From positions 1 to 34,710 of the forward strand of contig JAPKZQ010000020.1 in NCBI GenBank assembly GCA_026393675.1: a DNA stretch of 34,710 nt, read 5' to 3'. The notes under the pieces were generated by a model that was given only the letters and a program-made list of their open reading frames with translations, had not been told where the DNA came from and made no database searches. A program made the translations under genes and the position numbers. Origin of the DNA: Acidobacteriota bacterium (GTDB lineage: Bacteria; Acidobacteriota; Vicinamibacteria; Vicinamibacterales; JAKQTR01). Positions 25,713 to 29,558 of the stretch are shown here, piece by piece; within the stretch, counting starts at the first letter, position 1; every line of letters starts with the position of its first letter.

Positions 25713-26426
25713 CTACCGCGTCAAAACGCGCACGACGGCGTCGGTGTCCAGCAGATTCTCGAACACGATGTCGGCGCCGGCCGCTCGGAGCGCCGCCTGG
25801 TCGGAGCCGCCGGTCGCGACGGCGACACAGTTGACGCCGGCCTTCCGCGCGGCGTCGACGTCGAGCGTCGTGTCGCCAATGATGATCACGTCGGACAATC
25901 CCCCCTTGGGGCAGCCCGCCTCGGCGGCACGCGCCATCGCGACTGGCACCAGTTCGTGCCGGAGGTTGGCATCCCCCCCGTACGCTCCACACCGGAAATG
26001 GCGCCAGAGATCAAAGTAGGCCAGCTTGATCCTGGCACCGTCCCGATAGTTCCCCGTCAACAACCCGAGATGCACCGTCTCAATGACCGCCAGGCGACCG
26101 ATCAACTCGGGGACACCGGGCAGCGCGCCTTTGAAAGAGCGGCGGGACGTGCCATCGATGGGCGTCGGCACTGGCGCATCAACCTCTTGCTTGAGCCGCG
26201 CGAAGTAGGCCGTCGTGAAATCGGCGAGGTGACCCGCGGATGGCTCAACGCCGAACTTCGCCAGGGCATCCGACAGAATCGCCGGATCGGTCCGTCCCGC
26301 CATCGGCACCCCACGGAATGCGTCGGGAATGCCAAAGACCGCTTCAAACGCCCGGTTCATGGCGCGCACGCCAGCGCCACCGGTCAGCACCAGGGTCCCG
26401 TCGACATCGAACAGCAGCAGTTTCAC
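25713..26426 (-). CDS. HAD-superfamily hydrolase (phosphoglycolate phosphatase-like)
   Basis: It is a probable small-metabolite phosphatase. Motif I FDVDGTLV (Asp7 nucleophile, Asp9) is at the very N-terminus. A helical cap follows (about 15-100), then the motif II threonine in LLTGNY, a lysine region for motif III, and motif IV IIIGDTTLDVDAA. The start is set at a GTG (26424-26426) with AAGAGG ahead. The frame is open to ATGs at 26456 and 26480, but those add residues before motif I without a ribosome site. It is the last gene of the minus-strand erpA-to-HAD group, 98 nt after the degenerate ABC gene. Phosphoglycolate or a nucleotide-like substrate is possible; no specificity residues were assigned. 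Confidence 0.85.
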   Translation of the reverse strand: MKLLLFDVDGTLVLTGGAGVRAMNRAFEAVFGIPDAFRGVPMAGRTDPAILSDALAKFGVEPSAGHLADFTTAYFARLKQEVDAPVPTPIDGTSRRSFKGALPGVPELIGRLAVIETVHLGLLTGNYRDGARIKLAYFDLWRHFRCGAYGGDANLRHELVPVAMARAAEAGCPKGGLSDVIIIGDTTLDVDAARKAGVNCVAVATGGSDQAALRAAGADIVFENLLDTDAVVRVLTR

Positions 26427-26524
26427 GGTGTGTGGCCTCTTAGCCCTTCGATTCATGAATCCGGCAACGAATCTATGCACTCAGGGCTTCGTGCTGAGCG
26501 ATCATTCTTCACCGAATCGCCTCG

Positions 26525-27265
26525 TTAGAATACGCAACGGTACTGGCGAGTCGAAGCACTCAGCCATCGCCGCCATCGGGAGTCGGCGAGCAGTTGACCG
26601 GTTGCCGGATCGAGCCTGAGCACGCGTCCGGCGACAACCCGCGCGAACCCCTGATCGGCAGTCAGGGCGAGCAGCGGGAGGCGCCGACTCCGCGCCACGC
26701 GCGCAATCACGCGGCCGAATGCGAGTGCGTGATCCGCGGCCAGCACGTTGGCATGTTCCAGCACGAGCACGCGCGGACCTGATGCGAGGGCTCGAGCCAG
26801 ATGGCATCGCGCCCGGAAGGCCGCATCCAGATCGCCAACCCGCGCGTCGAACCGATCGGCGGGCAGGTCCACCTCCGCCGCCAGTCGGCGCACATCGTCG
26901 AGCACGCGATCCGGAATCGGATCAATCGACAGCGTGAAGGCCGTCGCGATGTTGGCCCCCAGGCTGAGATCGTCAACCAGCACGGCCCGCGACGACACGA
27001 GCCCGAATCGGTCGAGTGTGGCCAACCAGTCGTCAGCGTTCACAATCGCTGATGTCGCCTGCCCGAACACCGTGATGTTTCCGGCATCGGGCAACGTCGC
27101 ACCGGTGACCAGGTTGACGAGTACCTCCGCGCCGGGACCATCGATGCCGGTGATGGCCACGCGTTGGTCCGCACGAAGCGAGAGGTTCGCGATCCGCAGC
27201 GGCCTCAGGCCGCCGAACTGTTTTTCCAGCCCGGCAATCCGGATGACGGGTTCCCGCGCACTCAT
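26525..27265 (-). CDS. ABC-type ATPase homologue with all catalytic motifs lost
   Basis: The 246-residue protein follows the ABC nucleotide-binding fold and resembles MlaF-type ATPases in layout (IRIAGLEKQFGGLRPL, then VAITGIDGPG, SLGANIATAF, CHLARALASGPRVLVLE). Walker A reads GIDGPGAE (40-47), with Ala and Glu where Lys and Ser/Thr are essential. The signature region is VGDLD (143-147) instead of LSGG. Walker B ends VLVLEH (166-171), without the Asp-Glu pair, and the H-loop histidine is Ala203 (TAD for THD). ATP hydrolysis is therefore very unlikely. The frame is intact and codon use matches neighbours, so it is probably a functional pseudo-enzyme, not a decaying gene. No permease gene is adjacent. 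It starts 6 nt after the PHP gene stop. Confidence 0.75.
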   Translation of the reverse strand: MSAREPVIRIAGLEKQFGGLRPLRIANLSLRADQRVAITGIDGPGAEVLVNLVTGATLPDAGNITVFGQATSAIVNADDWLATLDRFGLVSSRAVLVDDLSLGANIATAFTLSIDPIPDRVLDDVRRLAAEVDLPADRFDARVGDLDAAFRARCHLARALASGPRVLVLEHANVLAADHALAFGRVIARVARSRRLPLLALTADQGFARVVAGRVLRLDPATGQLLADSRWRRWLSASTRQYRCVF

Positions 27266-27271
27266 CGCTGC

Positions 27272-28144
27272 TTACCAGGAGGGGCGACGCCCGGCCCGGC
27301 GGCACAGGTCGTCGAAATCGTCACCGGGCACGACGAAGCGGCCGAGACCGCCCGGGTGGTGCGACTGGTCACCGTGATAGTCGGATCCGCCAGTGATGCC
27401 GAGATCCAACCGGCGAGCCAGCGCCAGATAGCGATTGGTGTCGGCGTCGGCATGATCGGGGTGGTAGACCTCGATCGCGCCAAGTCCGGCGTGGCCCAGG
27501 TCGGCGATGATGTCGTCGATCCGGGTGAGGCCCGGATGCGCGAGCGACGCGAGGCCCCCGGACTTCTTGATGATCTGAATGGCGTCCTCGATGGTCACGC
27601 CGGCCCGAGGCGCAAACGCCGGGCACCCCTCGCCGAGGTATCGCTCAAAGGCTTCCCGCCAATTCTTGACATGGCCCGCGTCGACAAGCGCCCGCGCGAT
27701 GAACGGCCGCGACACGGGTTTTCCGCCGGCGGATGCAATCACCTGCTCGATATCGATCGGCACGCCCATCGCCGCCAACCGCCGACCGATCACCCGCGCG
27801 CGCCGGATGCGGTCCTTTCGCTGGTCCGTCAGAAACGCCATCAGGGCCGGCGCGCGATGGTCGAGAAAGTACCCCAGCACGTGCACGTCCTTCTGCTGCC
27901 ACACCGCCGTGATCTCGATGCCGGGCACGAAGCGAAGCCCCGAATCTCGTGCGGCCGCTTCGACGGCAGGGACCGCGTCGATCGTGTCGTGGTCGGTGAC
28001 GGCGATGACCGACAGGCCGGCCGCCGCGCAGTTCGCCACGAGGGCCTCGGGCGCATCCACGCCGTCGGAGGCCGTCGTATGGAGGTGCAGATCGATCAAT
28101 GGAGACGGGCGACCCGGAGTCGGGGATGCGTCTGGTGTCAGCAC
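27272..28144 (-). CDS. PHP-domain phosphoesterase (YciV/RNase AM-like)
   Basis: It is a metal-dependent phosphoesterase of the stand-alone PHP family. Characterised relatives hydrolyse 3',5'-nucleoside bisphosphates (pAp) or trim RNA 5' ends. Metal ligands are visible in DLHLHT (18-23), VTDHDT (His52), PGIEITA (about 75-81), SLAHPG and GSDYHG near the C-terminus. Length of 290 aa fits. The start is a GTG (28144) three nucleotides after the stop of the Fur fusion gene, and the degenerate ABC gene follows after 6 nt. Tight packing implies cotranscription. Confidence 0.88.
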   Translation of the reverse strand: MLTPDASPTPGRPSPLIDLHLHTTASDGVDAPEALVANCAAAGLSVIAVTDHDTIDAVPAVEAAARDSGLRFVPGIEITAVWQQKDVHVLGYFLDHRAPALMAFLTDQRKDRIRRARVIGRRLAAMGVPIDIEQVIASAGGKPVSRPFIARALVDAGHVKNWREAFERYLGEGCPAFAPRAGVTIEDAIQIIKKSGGLASLAHPGLTRIDDIIADLGHAGLGAIEVYHPDHADADTNRYLALARRLDLGITGGSDYHGDQSHHPGGLGRFVVPGDDFDDLCRRAGRRPSW

Positions 28145-28147
28145 GGA

Positions 28148-29134
28148 TTACGCCCGACGTCGGGCGGAGCGGGCGCGTCGCGCTGCGCGGGCCTGGCTCT
28201 CGCGCTTGGTCAGGGCGATGTACTCGCGAAGCAGGAGATCGAGGTGCCCGCGTTCCTCGTCGGCGAACTCCAGGAAGATCTGCTTGCCGGTCGAATCCTC
28301 GAATCGCTCGCCGTATCGCTTGAAGAAGCGGTGCGATGTCCGCTCGCATCGGATGCCGATCTTGAGCGCCTGTCGATCGTCCACGCCCCGCGCCACTTCT
28401 TCGGCCGCCGCCGCGAACAACCCGTTGGCGGCTCCCTTGAAGAACAGGAACGTCGGCCGCGACTCGAGTTGCGGATCCTGCTGAAGCAGTATCTGATAGC
28501 GCGACTCGAGCGCGGACAGATGGTCGCGCTCTTCGTCGGCCAGTTTCTGGAACACCCGCCGGCCGCGCGCGTCTCTCGTCATCCTCGCGGCCCGCGTGTA
28601 GAACTCGAGGCCGCTGCGCTCGGTGGCGATCGCGATGCGCAGTGCGTCGCGGGCAAACACCATCTCGCTCGTGTCGCCATCGGCCACGGCGGGTTTGCCC
28701 GTGCGGCACTCATCGCAGGTGCCGTAGATCTGCAGCACGCTCTGGCGGGCCGAAAAATTCCGGGCGACCGCCACTTCCTCAATCAGCGCTTCGATGTCGG
28801 AACTGAGGAACTCGAGCGATCGATTGCAGGTCTTGCAGATGAGATGGAAGTGGCGCGGATGCCGATACGAGTGTTCAAACCGGAACCGGCCTTCGCCGAA
28901 ATCCACTTTGCGCGCGATGCCGGCATCCACCATCCACTGCAGCGTTCGGTAGACGGTCGCCCGGCTGATGCGCGCGTCCTCCCGGCGGATCAGATCCACC
29001 AGGTCGTCGGCGGAGAGATGGCCTTCGTGCTTGAGAAAGACCCCGAGGATCCGCTCGCGCTTGGTCGAGCGCTTCCCGCCTGGCGGGGCGAGGCTGGCGA
29101 CGTCCGGCACGACGAGATCAGCTGGTGTTGACAT
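28148..29134 (-). CDS. Fur-family regulator fused to a rubrerythrin-like diiron domain
   Basis: Residues about 22-145 are a Fur/PerR-type repressor: winged helix with SRATVYRTLQWMVDAG (57-72), a His-rich metal region with HFHLIC (95-100), and the zinc-binding CxxC pairs Cys100/Cys103 and Cys140/Cys143. Residues about 157-305 are a ferritin-like four-helix domain with a complete diiron set: Glu172, E202-R-D-H205, Glu264 and E294-R-G-H297. The tail is Arg/Ala-rich. No rubredoxin domain is present. A peroxide- or iron-sensing repressor whose diiron centre is part of the sensor, or a self-regulated peroxidase, are both plausible; this is inference. It follows erpA by 60 nt and precedes the PHP gene. 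Confidence 0.88.
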   Translation of the reverse strand: MSTPADLVVPDVASLAPPGGKRSTKRERILGVFLKHEGHLSADDLVDLIRREDARISRATVYRTLQWMVDAGIARKVDFGEGRFRFEHSYRHPRHFHLICKTCNRSLEFLSSDIEALIEEVAVARNFSARQSVLQIYGTCDECRTGKPAVADGDTSEMVFARDALRIAIATERSGLEFYTRAARMTRDARGRRVFQKLADEERDHLSALESRYQILLQQDPQLESRPTFLFFKGAANGLFAAAAEEVARGVDDRQALKIGIRCERTSHRFFKRYGERFEDSTGKQIFLEFADEERGHLDLLLREYIALTKRESQARAARRARSARRRA

Positions 29135-29194: not shown

Positions 29195-29521
29195 CTATTC
29201 CGTCCTGAACGACGATCCGCACCCGCAGGTCGACTTCGCGTTGGGGTTGCGGATGGTAAACCCGCCGCCCGTCACGCTGTCGACGAAATCCACTTCCGCG
29301 CCCGTGAGGTATCGGGCGCTGATCGGATCGATGAACAGCTTCACGCCGTTCGACTCGAAGGACTGGTCGCTCGGTCCCGGACTGTCTTCGATCATCAGAC
29401 CGTACTGAAACCCGGAGCAGCCGCCTCCCTGCACGAACACGCGAAGGCCGCTCTGTACCTTCTGCTCTTCGGCCAGCAACTCGTTGATCTTGGTGGCGGC
29501 CGATGTCGAAACGTTCACCAT
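29195..29521 (-). CDS. erpA: A-type iron-sulfur cluster insertion protein
   Basis: It is a small carrier that inserts Fe-S clusters into target proteins. The 108 residues carry the three conserved cysteines: Cys35 in GGGCSGFQY, and Cys99 and Cys101 in STCGCGSSF. The KINELLAEE helix and the GLRVFVQGGG strand are typical of ErpA/IscA. The ATG at 29521 follows AGGGAG at good spacing; a longer frame to 29617 has no support. Its promoter has a perfect -10. Being first in line before a Fur/rubrerythrin regulator suggests iron- or oxidant-dependent control. IscA or SufA would be equivalent names. Confidence 0.94.
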   Translation of the reverse strand: MVNVSTSAATKINELLAEEQKVQSGLRVFVQGGGCSGFQYGLMIEDSPGPSDQSFESNGVKLFIDPISARYLTGAEVDFVDSVTGGGFTIRNPNAKSTCGCGSSFRTE

Positions 29522-29558
29522 ATGGGGCTCCCTGTCGATAGTCGATTCACCTGCTGTA

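Follow-up and report, generated by a model that had tools for sequence, protein, structure and literature searches.

Introduction

What does an ABC-ATPase homologue do in a bacterial iron and stress gene group when the residues that handle ATP have been replaced and no permease is recognised beside it? ABC domains rank among the commonest ATPases, and degenerate ABC domains are known mainly as halves of transporters. The question is raised by a gene from a soil bacterium, a member of the Acidobacteriota (order Vicinamibacterales), which is called pABC here, for pseudo-ABC ATPase, and which lies in a window of 34,710 nucleotides, the whole stretch of DNA that was analysed. A sequence-only reading of the window had described the product as an intact but catalytically dead ABC-ATPase and had proposed three roles for it, namely a scaffold, a nucleotide sensor, or a partner of an active ATPase encoded elsewhere.

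Results

A full-length ABC domain without ATP motifs

The open frame of pABC starts with ATG and encodes 246 amino acids (Table 1; the coordinates include the stop codon). The Pfam model ABC_tran (PF00005) matches it with 40.1 bits versus a cut-off of 25, and pABC is a single-domain protein, one full-length ABC nucleotide-binding domain. The motif positions were set by alignment to 14 MlaF proteins, all of which have Ser at Walker A position 3 and Lys-Ser at positions 7-8. None of the motifs of a functional ABC ATPase is found in pABC: GIDGPGAE stands in place of the Walker A consensus GxxGxGK[ST], L146-D147-A148-A149-F150 aligns with the signature LSGGM of MlaF (consensus LSGGQ), and both the Walker B Asp-Glu pair and the H-loop His are lost. 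Walker A, Walker B (VLVLEH) and the Ala of the H-loop had been described in the same way from the sequence alone. The signature had been reported as lost and placed at VGDLD; it is absent on either reading, but this placement begins three residues early compared with the MlaF alignment. The loss of the Q-loop Gln, Ser (S92) in the window protein, is a further dead motif that was not on the earlier list. A scan for promoters and terminators found none and is uninformative.

Table 1. Coordinates of pABC, its parts and its neighbours in the window.
Feature	Residues	Position	Strand	Basis or remark
pABC		26525..27265	(-)	ORF, Pfam PF00005, AF2 model, census of 62 orthologues
ex-Walker A, GIDGPGAE	40-47	27125..27148	(-)	Lys to A46, Ser/Thr to E47, position 3 to D42
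ex-Q-loop, S-S-R	91-93	26987..26995	(-)	Gln lost (S92 here), R93 invariant
ABC signature position, LDAAF	146-150	26816..26830	(-)	motif missing
ex-Walker B, VLVLEH	166-171	26753..26770	(-)	Asp to E170, catalytic Glu to H171
ex-H-loop, A203-D204	203-204	26654..26659	(-)	census of 62 orthologues
C-terminal tail, SRWRRWLSA...	224-246	26528..26596	(-)	aromatic/basic composition
HAD phosphatase		25713..26480	(-)	downstream of pABC
PHP phosphoesterase		27272..28144	(-)	6 bases upstream of pABC
Fur domain and rubrerythrin-like domain fusion		28148..29134	(-)	PF01475 2.7e-26, PF02915 1.7e-10
ErpA/HesB-type iron-sulfur carrier		29195..29524	(-)	named from sequence, start codon uncertain

An AlphaFold2 model, for which the input was the window protein plus 31 orthologues, reached a mean pLDDT of 91 and a pTM of 0.87. 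Foldseek and VIA-align matched ABC nucleotide-binding domains to this model along its length, and therefore a complete ABC nucleotide-binding-domain fold is predicted to be kept despite the lost catalytic residues. Together with the Pfam match, the high-pLDDT model bears out the earlier description as an intact ABC-ATPase homologue in an open frame. The top structural match is MlaF (6xbd, Z 26.3, 222 residues, 2.4 A; 7ch7, Z 26.2), with a narrow lead, as other ABC proteins are nearly tied (e.g., 1f3o, Z 25.3).

The replacements are fixed in an orthologue family

Orthologues of pABC (E < 1e-28) were found in 38 of 60 genomes, the window genome counted in; the gene is missing from the other 22, some of which are incomplete. 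A pattern scan with one conserved stretch against 84,980 bacterial and archaeal genomes returned 31 loci. Their record titles mostly name Acidobacteria or Acidobacteriota, including Vicinamibacterales and a Luteitalea sp., while the remaining ones are metagenome bins, at least one of which (L131) matches, with identical sequence, a locus from the order to which the window belongs. Two other readings were considered and rejected: PADLOC gave no match to an anti-phage system, and a search for a phage origin yielded, among the matches listed, only weak generic ABC matches of 26-31% identity.

The motif census comprised 62 distinct orthologues, including the window protein. The Walker A Lys is replaced in all of them, by Ala in 61 and by Gly in one; D42 is found in 61 and E47, at the Ser/Thr position, in 57. 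At Walker B, E170 and H171 have taken the place of Asp-Glu in 62 of 62. The SGG of the signature and the H-loop His do not occur in any orthologue; position 203 is Ala in 38, and the adjacent D204 is kept in 61. At the Q-loop, Gln remains at position 92 in a single orthologue, whereas R93 is invariant (62/62). A sequencing error, which had already been judged unlikely, is excluded, as the same replacements recur in 61 other orthologues. Close relatives thus share the dead motifs of the window protein, and homologues with intact motifs were not found among the orthologues. Sixteen alignment columns are at least 90% conserved in the family but different in MlaF, including R21, P22, R24, D42, A46, E47, W80, R93, E170 and H171. 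Five of the sixteen lie in the former ATP site, a weak enrichment of conserved columns (hypergeometric P 0.07). Judged from the alignments, the changes at the ATP site are a fixed replacement pattern and not drift.

Most orthologues, as well as members from a second class of bacteria, have a short stretch past residue 223 that is rich in Trp/Phe and Arg/Lys. Trp makes up 8.0% of the tail versus 0.8% of the body, and Lys/Arg 23% versus 9.7%; at least one Trp is present in 45 of the 62 tails, and genus g5 has no tail. MlaF ends in a short hydrophobic helix (PMC7367683), and by analogy the tail of pABC may bind the membrane or a partner.

Relationship to MlaF

With a family profile that was run across 297 genomes, the best-ranked canonical matches are MlaF-like, a status that for several of them is given by MlaE-like and MlaD-like neighbouring ORFs recognised by eye. 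Of the 54 canonical proteins that best match the window protein, half adjoin an MlaE gene. The MlaF model NF008809 is outside the 25 best NCBIfam matches of pABC, all of which are far below their cut-offs. A search of the window genome for the permease MlaE found none; MlaE is present in 33 of the 38 pABC genomes, and pABC persists in the five that are MlaE-less, including the window genome. A descent from MlaF was considered, and profile and fold rank speak for it. It is not claimed, because the tree (see below), which places the dead clade beside MlaF and other ABC proteins and inside neither, does not resolve the parentage and because NCBIfam ranks other ABC models first.

Selection, age and loss

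Selection was assessed by pairwise Nei-Gojobori estimates, and synonymous divergence is high. The closest pABC pair has a dN/dS of 0.057, equal to that of the neighbouring HAD gene, pairs within another genus have 0.12-0.22, near the HAD neighbour, and looser pairs have 0.19-0.38, somewhat above HAD in genus g16. The nearest orthologues of the window protein are distant (54-55% identity); pN/pS is 0.50-0.53 for these comparisons, similar to the values of the window neighbours (HAD 0.51-0.52, PHP 0.55). As a family, pABC is under purifying selection.

The relatives in the second class are dead as well, with GMPEAEAE and GLSEEIAE at Walker A and F-Y or Y-E at Walker B, and with 21.1 and 22.2 bits they fall under the PF00005 cut-off of 25. 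A tree of 53 rows groups them with pABC in one clade (100/100) on a long branch, apart from all canonical ABC proteins. Therefore, the loss of the ATP motifs seems to be old and to predate both lineages, unless one of them acquired the gene by transfer. The loci of these relatives (L140:547-1338 and L097:1474-2220) differ from the pABC cluster: the neighbours of one are ORFs similar to selD and to NADH dehydrogenase subunits, those of the other are 2-oxoacid:ferredoxin oxidoreductase-like and NUDIX-like ORFs (all names from sequence).

The other species of the window's genus (G001, the sister species), with a Fur-rubrerythrin protein 96% identical to that of the window, has an intact cluster without pABC. 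At the junction (L150) the end of PHP joins the start of HAD directly, with a few bases shared. Because of this clean deletion, which leaves the rest of the operon intact, pABC is dispensable. Other relatives that seemingly lack the gene were also searched for a diverged copy: the family HMM matched none of the ORFs between Fur-rubrerythrin/PHP and HAD (best E 0.08), and the ORFs in the gap encode the 4-TM protein described below, a methyltransferase, a Cu/Zn superoxide dismutase or a cold-shock protein.

Gene cluster

In nearly all placeable orthologues the gene order is ErpA, Fur-rubrerythrin, (PHP), pABC, HAD; PHP is missing in some clusters, and the order is rearranged in one genome (L041). 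The iron/stress gene group with PHP and HAD neighbours and no adjoining permease had been recognised from the window alone; these neighbours are kept across the orthologue clusters, and no permease was recognised beside pABC in the cluster, in the window or in the relatives. The best NCBIfam match of PHP is 3',5'-nucleoside bisphosphate phosphatase (NF041577, E 2.7e-58), below the curated cut-off. The ErpA-type gene is kept in the cluster in nearly all relatives. The Fur-rubrerythrin fusion is one protein of 328 aa that is well conserved order-wide, with about 62-96% identity between the relatives and the window. In many relatives a gene named from its sequence as Cu/Zn superoxide dismutase occupies the space between pABC and HAD on the strand opposite to the operon (e.g., L042, L044, L055, L061, L069 and others), and cold-shock-type and methyltransferase genes (names from sequence) also recur. 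The window genome (G000), which is 98.6% complete, has neither SufB nor SufD and no SufC over the cut-off.

A small 4-TM protein

In some relatives the cluster also contains a gene for a 4-TM protein of about 155 aa with the motif HSMxMFYLIGKG(K/R)A, for which neither Pfam nor NCBIfam has a family. It was seen at L121:5525-5986, L111, L113, L119, L122-L124, L127, L129 and G049:C64:28073-28537. In most genomes that hold both genes it lies 12-27 bases upstream of pABC, a spacing that suggests translational coupling. Its model is a four-helix bundle, and a fold search gave no significant PDB match. Only four of the 60 genomes contain both genes, 14 have the 4-TM gene without pABC, and 34 of the 38 pABC genomes, the window genome among them, have no 4-TM gene anywhere; this co-occurrence is below chance (Fisher p 3e-5, 60 genomes, relatedness ignored). 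The family also occurs more widely in the phylum. Because it is absent here, is found without pABC in 14 relatives and exists elsewhere in the phylum, the 4-TM protein is at most a candidate partner that is specific to certain lineages.

Discussion

The explanation that we favour, at about even chances, is that pABC is a non-catalytic adaptor or scaffold of an iron and oxidative-stress operon, built from an ABC domain. Because the dead form has been kept by selection throughout the order beside the same stress genes, it is probably a reused adaptor and not a broken gene. The usual ATP binding is unlikely, because Ala has taken the place of the Lys and Glu that of the Mg-binding Ser/Thr, and we infer that pABC forms no ATP-sandwich dimer. 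A partner would dock on the former ATP site in its altered state and on the other surfaces that are conserved in this family only, i.e., GLRPLR (residues 19-24), W80, R93 and R194. The short Trp/Phe-Arg/Lys tail at the C-terminus would, in most lineages, anchor pABC to the membrane or to a partner. For one set of lineages the 4-TM protein, whose gene lies 12-27 bases upstream, is a candidate partner. Another partner must then exist in the window genome, because the 4-TM gene is absent there. Points against this explanation are the patchy presence of pABC and its clean loss in the sister species, which make its role dispensable, the tail-less genus g5, the below-chance pairing with the 4-TM gene, and the high synonymous divergence behind the pairwise dN/dS values. 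Among the three roles proposed by the sequence-only reading, the scaffold is the best. The nucleotide sensor has become unlikely, with the P-loop Lys changed to Ala and the Mg-binding Ser/Thr to Glu in nearly all members, and a pairing with an active ATPase of the kind known from asymmetric transporters is unsupported, because the signature of pABC is also lost, so that the partner's site could not form and neither composite site could work.

Several other explanations have to be weighed. The former Mg-ATP site could have been rebuilt as a carboxylate/histidine pocket for Fe2+, Mn2+ or another cation, formed by D42, E47, E170 and H171 near D204; pABC would then sense or store iron for the Fur-rubrerythrin operon. 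E47, E170 and H171 replace the residues that in ABC proteins hold Mg2+ and activate water, all five pocket residues are conserved in 57 to 62 of the 62 orthologues, and the neighbours are iron/peroxide genes. However, conserved columns are only weakly enriched at the site, the conserved residues could be purely structural, and in the relatives from the second class E47 is retained while Walker B reads F-Y or Y-E, so that no metal site is common to both classes. We regard a metal pocket as unlikely, and quite unlikely the broader proposal of a new class of stand-alone pseudo-ATPases whose conserved acidic/histidine pocket would hold iron or a different metal and have a regulatory or scaffolding role in the Fur-rubrerythrin operon. 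It is likewise doubtful that pABC is a peripheral subunit of the 4-TM protein, forming with it a permease-like or sensor pair and docking by the coupling-helix groove of the pseudo-nucleotide-binding domain. The close spacing of the two genes and the invariant R93 and W80, which by alignment adjoin the Q-loop/coupling-helix groove, would fit such a pair; its weakness is that the two genes mostly occur in different genomes, that the 4-TM family is wider in the phylum and that its fold has no significant PDB match.

An inactive half of an asymmetric ABC transporter, paired with an active domain from elsewhere such as that of MlaF, is distinctly improbable. Degenerate nucleotide-binding domains are common in transporters (PMC7756269), the profile places MlaF-type proteins nearest among the canonical ABCs, the best fold match is MlaF, and most pABC genomes (33 of 38) contain MlaE. 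Yet with the signature lost the ATP site of the partner could not form, and pABC occurs in five MlaE-less genomes, the window genome included, with no adjoining permease recognised. A decaying relic without function would explain why pABC is missing from several lineages and has been precisely deleted in the sister species, but it is very unlikely and already contradicted at the family level: the same replacements are found in 62 orthologues with open frames and conserved synteny, dN/dS is 0.06-0.2 in close pairs, and the dead clade spans two classes. This agrees with the earlier expectation of a selected pseudo-ATPase instead of a decaying gene. Finally, a role like that of SufC, the scaffold ATPase of the SUF iron-sulfur machine, was rejected as extremely improbable. 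SufC itself is an active ATPase, no SufB or SufD was detected in the window genome by a search that found both in 14 of 14 control genomes, no SufC exceeded the cut-off there (TIGR01978), and pABC is not among the 54 matches of the SufC model. What had spoken for this role was the ErpA-type iron-sulfur carrier gene in the cluster and the description of SufBCD as a pseudo-ABC transporter (PMC6956336).

A literature search, largely without subscription papers, found no stand-alone ABC domain that is dead in every motif and conserved throughout an order. Degenerate nucleotide-binding domains inside transporters are already well known. pABC is a stand-alone domain that selection has kept without any ATP motif, the signature included, across an order, and dead relatives exist in a second class. 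If confirmed biochemically, this would show an ABC fold put to a use that needs no ATP, as happens in other pseudoenzymes. pABC also provides an entry point to an iron/oxidative-stress cluster of the Acidobacteriota that is so far uncharacterised. The name that automatic annotation would probably assign, ABC transporter ATP-binding protein, is misleading.

Among known systems, MlaF is the closest canonical relative by profile and the top fold match, and both proteins have a short C-terminal extension. However, the ATP motifs are complete in MlaF, whose partners are MlaE, MlaD and MlaB, whereas pABC has no ATP motif. The tail of MlaF forms a domain-swapped 'handshake' of about 25 aa with a short hydrophobic end helix (PMC7367683), compared to which that of pABC is shorter and Trp/Arg-rich. 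NBD1 of Pdr5 and other degenerate domains of exporters resemble pABC in the replacement of the Walker A Lys, the Walker B Glu and the H-loop His (PMC7756269). In Pdr5 the degenerate domain still supplies an intact signature to the site of its partner: the altered signature of the NBD1 site sits in NBD2, and NBD1's own signature serves the active site (PMC7756269). It is thus a domain within a full transporter, in contrast to the stand-alone pABC with its dead signature. SufC shares with pABC an ABC domain, in its case in the cytosolic, non-transport scaffold SufBCD, but it is active, and the window genome is devoid of SufB/D. ABC-F proteins likewise have ABC domains without a permease; they consist, however, of two active nucleotide-binding domains joined by a linker, while pABC is one dead domain.
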